From the NCBI GenBank assembly GCA_016209985.1, contig JACQVB010000196.1, positions 1 to 35,550 of the forward strand: a stretch of DNA of 35,550 bases, read 5' to 3'. Origin of the DNA: Gemmatimonadota bacterium (GTDB taxonomy: Bacteria > Gemmatimonadota > Gemmatimonadetes > Gemmatimonadales > GWC2-71-9). The notes beneath the pieces are model-generated. The model was given only the letters and a program-made list of their open reading frames with translations, had not been told where the DNA came from and searched no databases. Positions 12,554-17,858 of the stretch are shown piece after piece (the stretch's first letter is position 1; each line of letters opens with the position of its first letter). The translations under genes were made by a program, and so were the position numbers.

Positions 12554-13843
12554 TCAGAAGTAGTACCGGACTCGCAACTCCACTCGCACATTGCCCTGCT
12601 TGTCGCCGAACTCCGTGCCCCGCGCGCCCGTGATCAGGTTCACCTGCGACCGGAGCTCCAGGTTAGTGAACAGTTTGTACATCATTTCCTGAGTCAGCGA
12701 GAAGCTCCGATCAGCGAGGTTGAAGACGCTGTAGGCCGCTGGAGTGAAGTACAGCACGCCAAAGGCGTCTGGCTGGCTGACGCGAAGGTACGCGTAGTCG
12801 CGCATCGGGTTGATGCCGCCGTAGCCCAGTTCGGCTGCCTTGGCCGCCTGCGTGAGCCGCGCGGCATCCCCGGAGGCCAGGTACCGATCGTACGCCGTGC
12901 CCACGAATGCGAAGAAGTCGCGCATCTCGGCGGTCGTGAAGCCGGTGCCCGCATGGTAGTAATCGAGGATCAGCGTCGTCTCCGACCGGGTCAGGTACCG
13001 AAGGCCCAAGAGATAGCTGGTGGCGTCGCCAACGGTCTGGCTCATCTGCCCCTGCCCGTCGACCGTGCTGCGGATACGGTCATGGATGAACGCCAGCTCC
13101 CCATGGACCTCGAAATTGGAGGTGATATTGCGTGAGAGGTCGAAGCCGACCCGGCTCGGCCGACTTCCGCCGGCCAGGAACAGCAGGTCGATGTCGGTAT
13201 CGTAGAGCAAGAGATACAACTTGCCGGCGGCGTTCACCCGGCCGGTTCGCCCGTACGCCGCGTTGAGGTGCCGGTAAACCGGGATCAGCACCGGCGTGAC
13301 GGAGACCGTCTGCAACGGTCCGTCAAAGCTTCTGATGTAGTCGGCTGCGAGGACCAGAAACCCTTCCTGCGCCAGCGTGGGGTCGTCCGGGTTCTTGGGC
13401 CGGTCCACGAAGGCCACCGGATTCCACACGTAGCCCTTGCCCCAGGTCTGCCGCTTCTTGCCGAGGTCCAGAGTGAACGACGGCGAGGGCTTGAACGACA
13501 GGTTCGCCTCGTAGCTGGTCGCGTGTGCCGACCAGTCGCCCGCCTGGTCCACGTCGACCACGCTGCGCGAGTTGAAGCTCCACGCCCCGCGCCGCAAGGC
13601 GGCATCGAGGAGGAACTGCTGGTTCAACTGGGTGGTCGTGTGCTTCCCGGCCGAGTCATGCCACCGGAGCTGGTACAGCGCCGCCCCGGTGTCCAGCCAG
13701 AGCACGGTTGGGCGCGTTTCGAGAAAACCGCCGACCGTGTACGGCTTTCGCTTGATCGCTGGAATCTGCTCGGGCTGGTCCTGACCTCCCGCCAGCGCTG
13801 GCACCAGGCTGAGCAGGAGAACGACCGCAGCCGGACTTCTCAC
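12554..13843 (-). CDS. Outer-membrane beta-barrel protein of the ABC/LolA-like operon (DUF1302-like)
   Basis: This 429-residue protein has a signal peptide (about residues 1-20, ending LAGG) followed by alternating amphipathic strands. It ends in RVELRVRYYF, whose terminal Phe is typical of outer-membrane barrels. The segment LGKKRQTWGKGYVWNPVAFV resembles the RQ-x-WGKA-x-x-x-NP signature of DUF1302-type barrels; this is suggestive, not proven. A GTG start at 13843 overlaps the upstream stop as GTGA, so the two genes are translationally coupled. The frame continues upstream, but there it lies over the preceding gene. It is the last gene of a four-gene operon and probably forms the outer-membrane exit or docking point. 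Confidence 0.82.
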   Translation of the reverse strand: MRSPAAVVLLLSLVPALAGGQDQPEQIPAIKRKPYTVGGFLETRPTVLWLDTGAALYQLRWHDSAGKHTTTQLNQQFLLDAALRRGAWSFNSRSVVDVDQAGDWSAHATSYEANLSFKPSPSFTLDLGKKRQTWGKGYVWNPVAFVDRPKNPDDPTLAQEGFLVLAADYIRSFDGPLQTVSVTPVLIPVYRHLNAAYGRTGRVNAAGKLYLLLYDTDIDLLFLAGGSRPSRVGFDLSRNITSNFEVHGELAFIHDRIRSTVDGQGQMSQTVGDATSYLLGLRYLTRSETTLILDYYHAGTGFTTAEMRDFFAFVGTAYDRYLASGDAARLTQAAKAAELGYGGINPMRDYAYLRVSQPDAFGVLYFTPAAYSVFNLADRSFSLTQEMMYKLFTNLELRSQVNLITGARGTEFGDKQGNVRVELRVRYYF

Positions 13844-14598
13844 CGTCTCAGCGACTCCACGTTTGGCAGGAACGTCAAGGTGAAGACTTCGTCCGGAAAG
13901 GTGCGCTTCTTGATGTCCACGAACACCATGATGGACTTGTATCCCTGGTGGAGTGGACTGTCGGTCTCGATGGTCGCGGGCCGCACCAGGCCGCCGCCGA
14001 AGTCTTTGATGTCCTTGAAGTAGAGCGTCTTGATGAGCAGCGATGCCGCCGTCAGGCATTCGATGCGGGTCGGCAGGTACCGGTCCTTGGTGACCCACAT
14101 CCGCAACCTGTCATAGGCGACCGTCCTGGTCTTGGCCTGCAGCTGGAGCAGGTACTCGGTCCCCGCGTCCTCCTGGCTGACGACGTCGTACTCGGCGCTG
14201 TAATCAAGTGCCAGGATGTCCGCGTTGTTGAAGATGCCCCCGACGATGCCTTGCAGGCTGGTGATGCGCACGGGCTTCCCCGCGTTCGGGATGTAGAGCC
14301 ACATGTTCTCACCGAGGCGAAGCGTCCCCCGCCCGCGGTCAGCGGCCGGTGAGAGGAAAAGGGCGGCGACCTTCTCGCGCCCGCGTGCCACCGAAAACAG
14401 CAGGTACTCGCGTTGCCGCCCGCCGGGCTCGATGTTGGTCAGCTTCCGGTACGACTCGTATGACTCAGGTGTGAGGTTGCGATCGAGGCGTCTGAGGATC
14501 TCGTTGCCCCCTTGGGCACGAGCGACGCTGGTCCACGTGCCGGCTAGAACGAGGGCGGCCGTTACCCCAAGCAGCCGAGCGACCGCCCGCCTACGCAT
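13840..14598 (-). CDS. LolA-like periplasmic protein (outer membrane lipoprotein-sorting protein family)
   Basis: This 252-residue protein has a signal peptide ending ARAQG (about 1-29). It contains the hallmarks of the LolA-fold 'outer membrane lipoprotein-sorting protein' family: ENMWLYIPNAGKPVRITSLQ, DYSAEYDV, a YLLQLQAK strand, MWVTKDRYLPTRIEC and a C-terminal VFTLTFLPNVESLRR. Such proteins carry hydrophobic cargo (lipids or lipid-anchored molecules) across the periplasm in a beta-sheet half-pipe. Classical LolA sequence is not seen, so lipoprotein transport itself is not implied. The gene overlaps the permease by 8 bases and the barrel gene by 4, so it is an integral member of the operon. 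Confidence 0.85.
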   Translation of the reverse strand: MRRRAVARLLGVTAALVLAGTWTSVARAQGGNEILRRLDRNLTPESYESYRKLTNIEPGGRQREYLLFSVARGREKVAALFLSPAADRGRGTLRLGENMWLYIPNAGKPVRITSLQGIVGGIFNNADILALDYSAEYDVVSQEDAGTEYLLQLQAKTRTVAYDRLRMWVTKDRYLPTRIECLTAASLLIKTLYFKDIKDFGGGLVRPATIETDSPLHQGYKSIMVFVDIKKRTFPDEVFTLTFLPNVESLRR

Positions 14599-15829
14599 GC
14601 CGCAACGCCTCGACCGGTTCCATTCGCGAAGCCTTGAACGCCGGCTGGAGACTTGCGAGGACCGACACCAGGACCACGATGCCCGACACGACCAGCAGGT
14701 CGCCCGCCGTCACGACGGGCGCCAGCACCAGCCCCTCGACGCGGGCGAAATCGAAGGTGGGACGCGCGGCCCGGACCAGCAGGACAATGACGCTGCCCAG
14801 CGCGCCTCCCACGACCGTGCCGAACACGCCGAGCGAGAATCCCTCGATGACGAACATCGCCAGGATCTTGCCCGGCAGCGTGCCCATCGCCGCGATGGTG
14901 CCGATTTCCCGTATCCGTTCGTAGACCGCCATCAGCATCACGTTCATCACGCTGATCAGGACGATGGCGACCAGCGCGACCTTGATGAATACCGCCAGGA
15001 GATCGATCATCCGGGCGATGCTGCTGAACGGCGACAGACCCTCCCAGGTGTGGACCTCGAATACCGGCTTTCCACCGGCATCGACCTGGGATGCCAGCAG
15101 ACGGGTGAGCTGGGCGTACACCTCGTTCACGCGGCCAGGCTCCCTCACACCGATGGCGATCTCGCTGATCTCCAGCTCCTCCATCCTCAGCAGTTCGCGC
15201 GCATCGTCCATATGGATGTACGCGTCACGCCCGCTGGGTCCCGCGGCACTCACCAGGACGCCGCCGACGGCCAACTGGAGGGCGTTCACGGAGCCGTCCT
15301 GGTTGGTCGCGATCACCACCACGGCGGAACCGACCTTGACCTTCATGCCCTGAGCCAGCAAGTCGGGGATGAGGATCTCTCCCTTCCGAATGGTCTGCGC
15401 GCCCCCCTTGATCCGGGATGGCAGCAGCGGAACGGTGGCGAACTCCCGTTCCGGATCGACGCCGTTGAGCCGGATGCTGGTGGTTTCGAGATAGTTGCTG
15501 AACATGGCGCCCAATTTGACGCGCGGCGAGTAGACCTCGACCTCGGGGATAGACTGGAGCGCGCGCTCGACGGCGGTGACCTGCTGCGCAGACAGATTCA
15601 GCGTCAGTGGCAGATTGTCGATCGACGCCACATAACCCCGGCGGTGCACTTCCAGGTCTCCCAGCACCGCGTCCGTGAACTGCGCGATCATCATGCCCTT
15701 GAACGCCCCGGCCACCGCGCCGAAGACCACCACCGCGATGATCCCGACGGCGATGAGCGACCCCGTCAAAATCGTTCGGCGCCTGTTTCGCACCAGATTG
15801 CGAATGGCAATCTCAAACAGCTTGCGCAT
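14591..15829 (-). CDS. FtsX/LolE-type ABC transporter permease
   Basis: This 412-residue inner-membrane permease has an N-terminal helix (about 18-45, after RNLVRNRRRTILTG). A periplasmic MacB_PCD-like domain (about 45-270) follows, then three C-terminal helices of the FtsX domain including VYERIREIGTIAAMGT. It ends AFKASRMEPVEALRHA, the family's usual tail. The topology is that of LolC/E and MacB, which extract or push substrates at the outer face of the inner membrane by mechanotransmission. The start overlaps the ATPase gene by 17 bases and the end overlaps the LolA-like gene by 8, so all are cotranscribed. Confidence 0.92.
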   Translation of the reverse strand: MRKLFEIAIRNLVRNRRRTILTGSLIAVGIIAVVVFGAVAGAFKGMMIAQFTDAVLGDLEVHRRGYVASIDNLPLTLNLSAQQVTAVERALQSIPEVEVYSPRVKLGAMFSNYLETTSIRLNGVDPEREFATVPLLPSRIKGGAQTIRKGEILIPDLLAQGMKVKVGSAVVVIATNQDGSVNALQLAVGGVLVSAAGPSGRDAYIHMDDARELLRMEELEISEIAIGVREPGRVNEVYAQLTRLLASQVDAGGKPVFEVHTWEGLSPFSSIARMIDLLAVFIKVALVAIVLISVMNVMLMAVYERIREIGTIAAMGTLPGKILAMFVIEGFSLGVFGTVVGGALGSVIVLLVRAARPTFDFARVEGLVLAPVVTAGDLLVVSGIVVLVSVLASLQPAFKASRMEPVEALRHA

Positions 15830-16526
15830 AGGCCCGCCCTCGCGGTTCCCGCCGCCCGACGATCCTGCCGTCCTCGAGGTTATACAGCACCTCGGCCTCG
15901 TTCACGACTCGCGGATCATGGGTCGAAAAAATGAAGGTGGTGCCCAGGCGATCCTTCATCTGTCTCATGAGACCGATGACAGCCGCCGCCGTCGCGGTAT
16001 CCAGGTTCGCGGTCGGCTCATCGGCGAGCACGATCGCCGGCTCGGTGACGAGGGCCCGCGCTACCGCCACCCGTTGTTTCTGGCCGCCGGAGATTTGATC
16101 GGGATACTTCCCTGCCTCATCGCCCATGCCGACGCTCTCGAGCAGCTTCGCTACCCGCGCGGCACGTTCGGCGGAGGGCGTGGTGCGCACCAGCAGCAGC
16201 GGGTATTCCACGTTCTCGTACACCGTGAGCACGGGAATCAGGTTGAAATCCTGGAAGATGAAGCCAAGGTGAGCGCCTCGGAAGATCGCGCCACGCCGCC
16301 GATCCAGCAGGGAGACATCCTCGCCGGCCACCGTGAGGGACCCGGACGTGGGCCGGTCCAGCCCACCGAGGAGGTTCAACAGCGTCGTCTTGCCGCTGGC
16401 GGACGGACCGATGAATGAAACGAACGACGCCGCCTCGATCTCGAAGCTCACCTGCTTCAGCGCCTCGACTTTGGCTGCGCCGGTGGAATAGGTCTTGGAG
16501 AGGTCTTTCGCGACTATCAGACTCAT
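15813..16526 (-). CDS. LolD/MacB-type ABC transporter ATPase
   Basis: This is the 237-residue ATPase of the neighbouring permease. Walker A is GPSASGKTT, the Q loop lies in FIFQDFNLIP, the signature is ISGGQKQRVAVARAL, Walker B is IVLADEPTANLD and the switch His is in FSTHDP. The length and the extended A-loop region match the LolD/MacB/FtsE group. An ATG at 16526 is chosen, with GAGGG upstream at suitable distance; a GTG directly before it (16529) lies too close to that site. It heads the operon. The only candidate control site seen is the inverted repeat at 16550-16567. Confidence 0.94.
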   Translation of the reverse strand: MSLIVAKDLSKTYSTGAAKVEALKQVSFEIEAASFVSFIGPSASGKTTLLNLLGGLDRPTSGSLTVAGEDVSLLDRRRGAIFRGAHLGFIFQDFNLIPVLTVYENVEYPLLLVRTTPSAERAARVAKLLESVGMGDEAGKYPDQISGGQKQRVAVARALVTEPAIVLADEPTANLDTATAAAVIGLMRQMKDRLGTTFIFSTHDPRVVNEAEVLYNLEDGRIVGRREPRGRAYAQAV

Positions 16527-16753: not shown

Positions 16754-16882
16754 GTCGTGCGCCGCAAGGGGACCGACCTCGACTGGGCCTACATCGAAGG
16801 GTGGGCGCGCGGGTTCGCGAGCGTTCCGGGCCGGGAGGACCTACCAAGCAAGGTGGCTCAACTCCGCGGGGCGGGAGCGTAG
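16754..16882 (+). pseudogene. C-terminal remnant, possibly of a nucleotidyltransferase-like (AbiEii/DUF6036-type) protein
   Basis: Forty-two codons read GVVRRKGTDLDWAYIEGWAR and on to VAQLRGAGA, ending in a TAG at 16880-16882. The style (a D-W-x-Y-I-x-x-W-x-R-x-F helix and a leucine-rich tail) recalls the C-terminus of nucleotidyltransferases of AbiEii/DUF6036 type; this is recollection, not a search result. In the same frame a TAG stands at 16739-16741, and no start codon with a full domain exists upstream, so it is a broken 3' end. It lies in a 508-base gap between the ABC operon and the antitoxin. I see nothing else coding in 16568-16750 or 16883-16976. Confidence 0.35.
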
Positions 16883-16976
16883 CCCCCGGTCGCGACCGCA
16901 CGCCGAACGTAAACGTCACGTCAGTTTTTGGAATAACAGGACGCGGGCTCAACCGAGCGCCCGTTTCTCATCGCCA

Positions 16977-17015
16977 TTGTGGCTCCATGGCAAAAGTAGT
17001 AATAATTCATACTAC
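16977..17015 (+). promoter_or_regulatory. Promoter and operator of the toxin-antitoxin pair
   Basis: TTGTGG (16977-16982) and TAATAA (17000-17005) with a 17-base spacer form a plausible housekeeping promoter. They lie in an AT-rich island that stands out from the surrounding GC-rich DNA. An inverted repeat GTAGTA-N8-TACTAC (16996-17015) covers the -10 box and the start point. That is where an antitoxin would bind to repress its own operon. Confidence 0.5.
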
Positions 17016-17034
17016 AAACGAATCGAGGGGCCCC

Positions 17035-17271
17035 GTGGCCAATGCGGTCAAGAAAACCATCTCGCTGCCTGCTCAACTGGCGCGCGAAGTCGAGGACCTG
17101 GCGCGCGCCGAGGGCAAGACCCTGAGCGCCGTGATCCAGGACGCCCTGCGTGCCACGCGGAGTGCTCGCCTGGGAGGCGAGCTTCGTAGCCTCCAGGGCT
17201 ACTGGAGTCGCCGGGCAAAGGCGAAGGGCATCCTGACGGAGCGGGATCTCCAGCGCTACGTTCGCCGGTGA
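17035..17271 (+). CDS. Antitoxin of a PIN-type toxin-antitoxin pair (ribbon-helix-helix-like)
   Basis: This 78-residue basic protein has an N-terminus, KKTISLPAQLAREVEDLARA, that looks like a ribbon-helix-helix or MetJ/Arc DNA-binding fold. EGKTLSAVIQDALRATRS and an Arg-rich C-terminus that would cover the toxin follow. The GTG at 17035 has GAGGGG at 17025-17030. An in-frame ATG at 16987 lies inside the promoter island and is less likely. The stop overlaps the toxin start as GTGA, so both are made together. It probably binds the inverted repeat at 16996-17015. Confidence 0.75.
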   Translation: MANAVKKTISLPAQLAREVEDLARAEGKTLSAVIQDALRATRSARLGGELRSLQGYWSRRAKAKGILTERDLQRYVRR

Positions 17272-17690
17272 GGGTTGTGTTCGACTCGAATATCTACGTC
17301 TCTGCACTTACCCTTCCGGGCGGTCGAGCCGATGCCGCAATTCAGAAGGTGATTTCGGGCGAGGTCCAGCTTGCCATATCCAAGGCCATTGTCGGTGAGG
17401 TCCTGGGCGTGCTGGCCGACAAGTTCGACCGAAACGTGGAGGAACTGGCCCGCGTCGCGGTCTTCCTGGCTGACCTGGCCGAAGTGGTGACTCCCCGGAG
17501 CACCGTCGACGTGCTGGCGGATGAACCCGACAACCGAGTTCTGGAATGCGCTCGGGCTGGTCGAGCAGGTGTGATTGTCACGGGCGACCGGCGCATCCTC
17601 GCGCTCGGCGAGTTTGAAGGCATCACCATCCTCTCGCTCAGGCAGTTCCTTGAGAGGAGCGGCCCGGCCGAGGGCCCTGATGACGAATGA
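17268..17690 (+). CDS. PIN-domain toxin (putative endoribonuclease)
   Basis: This 140-residue PIN protein belongs to the 'putative toxin component, PIN family' group. Metal-binding acidic residues are in place: Asp6 (VVFDSNIYVSAL), Glu44 (IVGEVLGVL), Asp88 (EPDNRVLECA) and Asp107 (TGDRRIL). Such enzymes cleave RNA when not bound by their antitoxin. The GTG start at 17268 overlaps the antitoxin stop by 4 bases. The pair ends 20 bases before the 3' end of tRNA-Ser, a common site for insertion of mobile cargo, although no integrase or attachment repeat was found. Confidence 0.85.
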   Translation: MRVVFDSNIYVSALTLPGGRADAAIQKVISGEVQLAISKAIVGEVLGVLADKFDRNVEELARVAVFLADLAEVVTPRSTVDVLADEPDNRVLECARAGRAGVIVTGDRRILALGEFEGITILSLRQFLERSGPAEGPDDE

Positions 17691-17709
17691 CGCACTCGAG
17701 GGCCTGAAA

Positions 17710-17793
17710 CGGAGGGCGAGGGACTCGAACCCCCAAGGGCTTGCGCCCAGCGGTTTTCAAGACCGCCGCCTTACCAGTTAGGTCTAGCCCTCC
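17710..17793 (-). tRNA. tRNA-Ser (anticodon UGA)
   Basis: On the minus strand the acceptor arms GGAGGGC (17793-17787) and GCCCTCC (17717-17711) pair over 7 bp, with discriminator G at 17710. The anticodon stem GCGGT/ACCGC holds the loop CTTGAAA, giving anticodon TGA, which reads UCA. A long variable arm (GGGC-GCAA-GCCC) and a T loop TTCGAGT confirm a class II serine tRNA. CCA is not encoded. It is not tRNA-Sec, whose anticodon would be TCA and whose acceptor stem is longer. Confidence 0.95.
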
Positions 17794-17858
17794 AGGCGAA
17801 GGAAAACTATCACGGAATCGCTCCTGTCGCTCTCGGCCGCGGGGGGGCATGTTAGAGC

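Follow-up and report, generated by a model that had tools for sequence, protein, structure and literature searches.

Lol-type machines, in the form of LolCDE or of LolF/LolD with LolA, are usually treated as housekeeping. The closest published system to the locus described here is Borrelia BBJ23-29 (PMC13078400, 2026), in which a homodimeric LolE-like/MacB-type permease, a separate ATPase, a LolA-like carrier and an outer-membrane barrel lie in one cluster and coexist with another LolA. Export of a non-polar ligand has been proposed for this cluster, with a specialised Lol route for lipoproteins as a second option (PMC13078400). In F. johnsoniae, LolA2/LolB2 of the flexirubin operon provide a LolA-type carrier for which a non-housekeeping, probably hydrophobic cargo is proposed (PMC11885536), and iron-regulated MMPL/LolA-like operons are described in Porphyromonas and Prevotella (PMC10434189). 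Literature searches on PF17131, on NE2245 and on NifX together with LolA yielded nothing about the present cassette.

The cassette lies in a window of 35,550 nucleotides, the whole stretch of DNA analysed, from a Gemmatimonadota bacterium, and it is a variant of the export idea put forward for BBJ23-29. A single LolE-like permease, an ATPase, a LolA-like carrier and an outer-membrane barrel are again found in one cluster. Whereas BBJ23-29 has an Omp85-family barrel and two TPR proteins, the barrel here is porin/AlgE-like and the overlapping set consists of four genes only, without any TPR protein; the present cassette is also spread across phyla, with a NifX-like partner in some carriers. Unlike the pigment biosynthesis operon of F. 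johnsoniae (PMC11885536), it contains no biosynthesis genes. The best explanation, given a probability of about 0.6, is that the cassette is a self-contained, horizontally spread, ATP-driven trans-envelope exporter of hydrophobic cargo, separate from housekeeping lipoprotein sorting.

Layout and predicted parts of the cassette

Table 1. The four cassette genes, in positions of the window.
Feature	Coordinates	Strand	Description
LolD/MacB-type ABC ATPase	15813..16526	(-)	237 aa, all catalytic motifs intact
FtsX/MacB_PCD-type permease	14591..15829	(-)	412 aa, 4 TM helices and one periplasmic domain
LolA_like (PF17131) periplasmic carrier	13840..14598	(-)	252 aa, signal peptide
Outer-membrane beta-barrel	12554..13843	(-)	429 aa, signal peptide, GTG start

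Successive reading frames overlap by 17, 8 and 4 bases in the order ATPase, permease, carrier and barrel, and the coordinates (Table 1) and overlaps are exactly those given in an earlier note on this DNA. The starts of the frames match those of relatives, and conservation across phyla rules out a chance or frameshift origin of the overlaps.

The ATPase carries Walker A (GPSASGKTT), signature (SGGQKQR) and Walker B/H-loop (LADEPT and STHD) sequences and matches ABC_tran in Pfam (E 2.1e-32). Its best NCBIfam match is LolD (TIGR02211) at 218 bits, below the cut-off of 307.75. The permease contains FtsX (E 1.2e-12) and MacB_PCD (E 1.4e-9) domains by Pfam and scores 116 bits against the LolC/E equivalog TIGR02212, whose cut-off is 362.45. 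LolE and LolC are the top Foldseek matches of the permease model, with LolE first (E 5.2e-26, TM 0.70), and LolF is best in profile comparison (3.5e-25), while MacB is among the matches of both ATPase and permease and ranks below LolE/LolF. As the only LolE/LolF-like permease of the cassette, it presumably forms a homodimer. In LolC, the Hook hairpin grips LolA. The hairpin at this position in the cassette permease, which we take to be the counterpart of the Hook, has some 5 residues fewer than that of LolE/LolF by profile alignment and is tight in the model. On this comparison the permease appears to lack the longer, Hook-bearing loop of LolC, and the carrier would then have to dock in another way or not at all. 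The permease also has a conserved DGSVNG hairpin.

The carrier is assigned to LolA_like (PF17131, E 2e-37 in Pfam), has no match to PF03548 and is homologous to 3buu (E 6.9e-24), which indicates a LolA fold. The predicted model of the barrel is confident (pLDDT 89.7, pTM 0.83) and has about 18 strands; the protein starts with a signal-like segment, contains a conserved motif GKKxxxWGKGYxxNP and ends in a Phe shared by all 53 homologues. Chitoporin, AlgE and MOMP are its best Foldseek matches, with TM values of about 0.5-0.57, and in fold the modelled protein resembles a generic porin-type barrel. No Pfam family gives a credible match, and sequence profile searches found no relatives in PDB. 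The earlier description of this barrel as DUF1302-like is not supported, as no match to DUF1302 (PF06980) occurs in any of the 53 homologues and hhalign against DUF1302 sets, which are shallow, gives probabilities of 0.6 and 3.6%, the common ground being one short motif, G(K/R)xxxxWG. The view that the parts together cover the inner membrane, periplasm and outer membrane is supported for the ATPase and permease, the LolA-like protein and the barrel.

Conserved gene order and proposed transport route

A scan of GTDB species genomes yielded 252 carrier relatives, and the best 80 loci were compared. These belong to deltaproteobacterial lineages (Desulfobacterota and others), Nitrospirota, Nitrospinota, Aminicenantes, Acidobacteriota, Planctomycetota, Spirochaetota, Omnitrophota and others. 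Conservation of the four-gene order across genomes, the check proposed in the earlier note, is borne out: the ATPase-permease-carrier-barrel order on one strand is intact in 67 of these best 80 loci. Twelve of the 13 exceptions are cut by a contig end, and a single locus (L060, 7953-9480) truly lacks the barrel, with the other three genes present and a PIN-domain gene at the expected barrel place. Median identity to the window is 64% for the ATPase, 58% for the permease, 65% for the carrier and 46% for the barrel, and the carrier is 58-71% identical across phyla among the best 80 of 252 relatives. The four-gene arrangement is far beyond chance.

In the proposed route, a homodimeric LolF-like permease with its LolD-like ATPase would draw a hydrophobic molecule out of the inner membrane. 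The LolA_like protein would take this molecule into a hydrophobic cavity and ferry it across the periplasm, and the barrel would accept or release it at the outer membrane. Sequence homology suggests the inner-membrane and carrier steps, and gene order suggests the carrier-barrel step; from these we infer the direction of transport, the hydrophobic cargo and the hand-over between parts. Three observations count against this explanation, namely the apparently short Hook-type loop of the permease, the barrel-less L060 and the lack of recurrent lipid-biosynthesis genes in the flanks. The overall logic would be that of an MMPL-LolA_like-barrel module in which ATP hydrolysis replaces the RND/MMPL pump.

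Such a module is present in the same genome, where contig C78 (L032, 3074-7466) encodes, one after another, an MMPL protein (775 aa), a LolA_like protein (PF17131, 7e-60) and a barrel-type protein of 423 aa. The cassette shares with it a PF17131 carrier with an outer-membrane barrel beside it and differs in its engine, which is an ABC ATPase with an FtsX permease and includes no MMPL/RND pump. No relationship is detectable between the C78 barrel and the cassette barrel. In a further MMPL-LolA_like-barrel locus, that of a relative (L035, read from sequence), the barrel is distantly related to that of the window (E 1e-5), and divergent ABC-LolA_like loci in relatives (L024, 69-5852; L025, 5614-11048) combine two different permeases with a distant relative of the window barrel. 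Divergent two-permease ABC versions occur in G021, G003 and other genomes. From the C78 and L035 modules and the divergent ABC versions, it appears that ABC and MMPL engines can stand in for one another beside a LolA_like carrier and a barrel, which fits the earlier proposal that an ABC pump takes the place of MMPL here. A flavoprotein and a methyltransferase are encoded upstream of the C78 module, and L024 contains a small MarR/GbsR-like regulator, as read from its sequence.

Gene neighbourhood and nature of the cargo

A gene for a secreted NifX-like protein (PF02579) occurs in 22 of the best 80 loci (of 252), nearly always between permease and carrier, and in three Planctomycetota the carrier bears the NifX-like domain as an N-terminal fusion (L038, 7614-8669; L063, 2366-3421; L108, 2777-3871). 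For comparison, 39 control regions were taken from the same genomes, 19 random and 20 around canonical lolCE; control region L172, which is on a cassette-bearing contig, was left out. PF02579 occurs in none of the 39 (Fisher 8e-5, with loci that are not independent). Spy/ZraP-like Metal_resist genes are found in 16 of the best 80 loci (of 252) and in none of the 39 controls (Fisher 1e-3, again with non-independent loci). An unbiased count of Pfam families in the flanks is led by Metal_resist, AhpC, TauE, ArsP, ArsR, SBF and chromate transporter genes, each with at most one member in a random control of the same size.

These associations, together with the carrier fusions, would fit an efflux system for metal, metalloid or thiol stress. 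Its cargo would be a lipophilic species that is oxidised or bears a metal or metalloid, and its NifX-like protein would be an accessory binder. As a full explanation this is the best placed of the alternatives and still an unlikely one. The genome of the window contains no PF02579 protein and the window flanks contain no metal genes, so the NifX-like partner and the metal neighbours are accessory. The NifX-like proteins share no invariant Cys or His, and the association may only mirror shared mobile islands. The dependence among loci weighs against it as well, although the NifX-like trait changed at least nine times on the tree.

For the exporter favoured here, the gene context of the carriers suggests that the cargo is linked with metal, metalloid or thiol/oxidative stress and is not a dedicated structural lipid, and a metal cargo may be put forward as a hypothesis. 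The lipid or lipid-linked cargo proposed in the earlier note found no support, since no lipid or lipid-biosynthesis gene is associated and the neighbours instead concern metal, metalloid and thiol stress and a secreted NifX-like protein. The flanks of the cassette in relatives contain no recurrent lipid-biosynthesis genes, which speaks against a dedicated natural-product lipid of the flexirubin kind. A bolder and doubtful version sees the cassette as a mobile exporter that spans the envelope of anaerobes and serves in defence; here the LolF-like pump, the LolA-like carrier and the secreted NifX-like partner would remove metal-, metalloid-, sulfur-bearing or metal-damaged lipophilic species to the outer surface. 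We know of no metal, metalloid or sulfur cargo for LolA-fold carriers and of no extracytoplasmic role for the NifX/NafY domain. Should the links with NifX-like and metal-stress genes be functional, they would point to a new cargo class for LolA-fold carriers. The four defined proteins offer a direct test set for cargo and hand-over.

Several loci show further features of this neighbourhood. In L040 (3524-4757), two neighbouring reading frames just before the carrier gene appear to encode three NifX-like domains in tandem. Beside the cassette in L076 and L106 stands another ABC set of the MacB type, accompanied by sigma-factor-like, zf-HC2-type anti-sigma and Metal_resist-type genes; in L106 these lie ahead of the cassette, the anti-sigma gene belongs to the zf-HC2 anti-sigma cluster, and thioredoxin-like genes are also present. 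This neighbourhood looks like a metal or envelope-stress regulon. A peroxiredoxin-like reading is split into two reading frames (84 and about 138 aa) in L079 (4648-5373) and in the Smithellaceae relatives L058, L084, L098 and L105. The cause may be an in-frame UGA (selenocysteine) instead of a frameshift.

Relation to Lol sorting and probable horizontal spread

The cassette resembles the Lol pathway in its LolD-like ATPase, LolE/LolF-like permease and LolA-fold carrier, and departs from it in scores below the curated cut-offs, a PF17131 rather than PF03548 carrier, a barrel in place of LolB, an apparently short loop at the Hook place and coexistence with canonical Lol. By the sequence tests run, it would be Lol-like in its first two steps and outside the Lol family. 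In the same genome, a separate LolC/E-family permease on contig C187 (351.8 bits, against the TIGR02212 cut-off of 362.45) has a LolD-like ATPase adjacent to it, and a PF03548 LolA is encoded on contig C123. A separate strong LolC/E match is likewise present in 46 of 50 sampled carrier genomes. The cassette is thus not the housekeeping Lol system, which agrees with the earlier statement that it is distinct from the Lol pathway. The separate LolF/LolD and PF03548 LolA also rule out that it is the only Lol system of its genome.

A specialised second Lol route, in which some lipoproteins would travel to the outer membrane or the cell surface and the barrel would act as a surface flippase, would account for the closeness of the ATPase and permease to LolD and LolE/LolF and for the LolA fold of the carrier, and is one of the published options for Borrelia BBJ23-29 (PMC13078400). 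It is nonetheless improbable, a little more so than metal or thiol-stress efflux, because canonical Lol is already present, the scores fall well short of the equivalog cut-offs for LolD and LolCE, and the Hook-type loop appears short. In a crude lipobox motif scan, no lipobox protein was found in the cassette core, 5 of 272 flank reading frames encoded one and no lipoprotein gene recurred beside the cassette, which argues against a private lipoprotein cargo.

A MacAB-like efflux pump for small molecules or peptides, with the LolA-like protein replacing the MacA adaptor, is very unlikely. The cassette shares with MacAB-TolC the MacB periplasmic core domain and the type VII ABC fold, and MacB is found among the ATPase and permease matches, but the cassette contains neither a MacA-type (HlyD-type) adaptor nor a TolC-type channel, its ATPase and permease are separate reading frames, and LolE/LolF outrank MacB.

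Within its own phylum, the carrier was found in 1 of 298 sampled genomes (119 genera), that of the window itself, and relatives of the same family and order contain at best a 33% identical protein. Yet carriers in other phyla are about 60-70% identical, and for this reason the simplest reading is that the cassette was probably acquired by horizontal transfer between distant phyla. A quick tree of carrier, permease and barrel groups the window, which has a long branch, with Aminicenantes, Acidobacteriota and Planctomycetota at moderate support; the high-GC Acidobacteriota loci L039 and L100 are missing from it as the ORF picker chose wrong frames, and the long branch of L076 reflects a different permease taken by the same picker. 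From a tRNA-Ser gene rightwards, the window is collinear with a same-genus genome (G001, contig C25), and it is therefore not a stray contig. An assembly artefact or chance adjacency, for which the single occurrence among 298 genomes might speak, is scarcely credible given the order conserved across phyla, the syntenic right flank and a GC content that is even over the whole window. The even GC content is uninformative as a sign of transfer. The exporter would represent ABC-LolA logic packaged with its own outer-membrane barrel as a portable unit moving between phyla, beside canonical Lol.

Integration at the tRNA-Ser with a second att copy was considered and set aside, as no second copy of its 3' end was found in the window within 3 mismatches. 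The cassette does sit 3' of this tRNA-Ser, as integrated islands do, and an RHH/PIN_3 (VapBC-like) pair together with the tRNA-Ser (16801-17794) adjoins it on the ATPase side.
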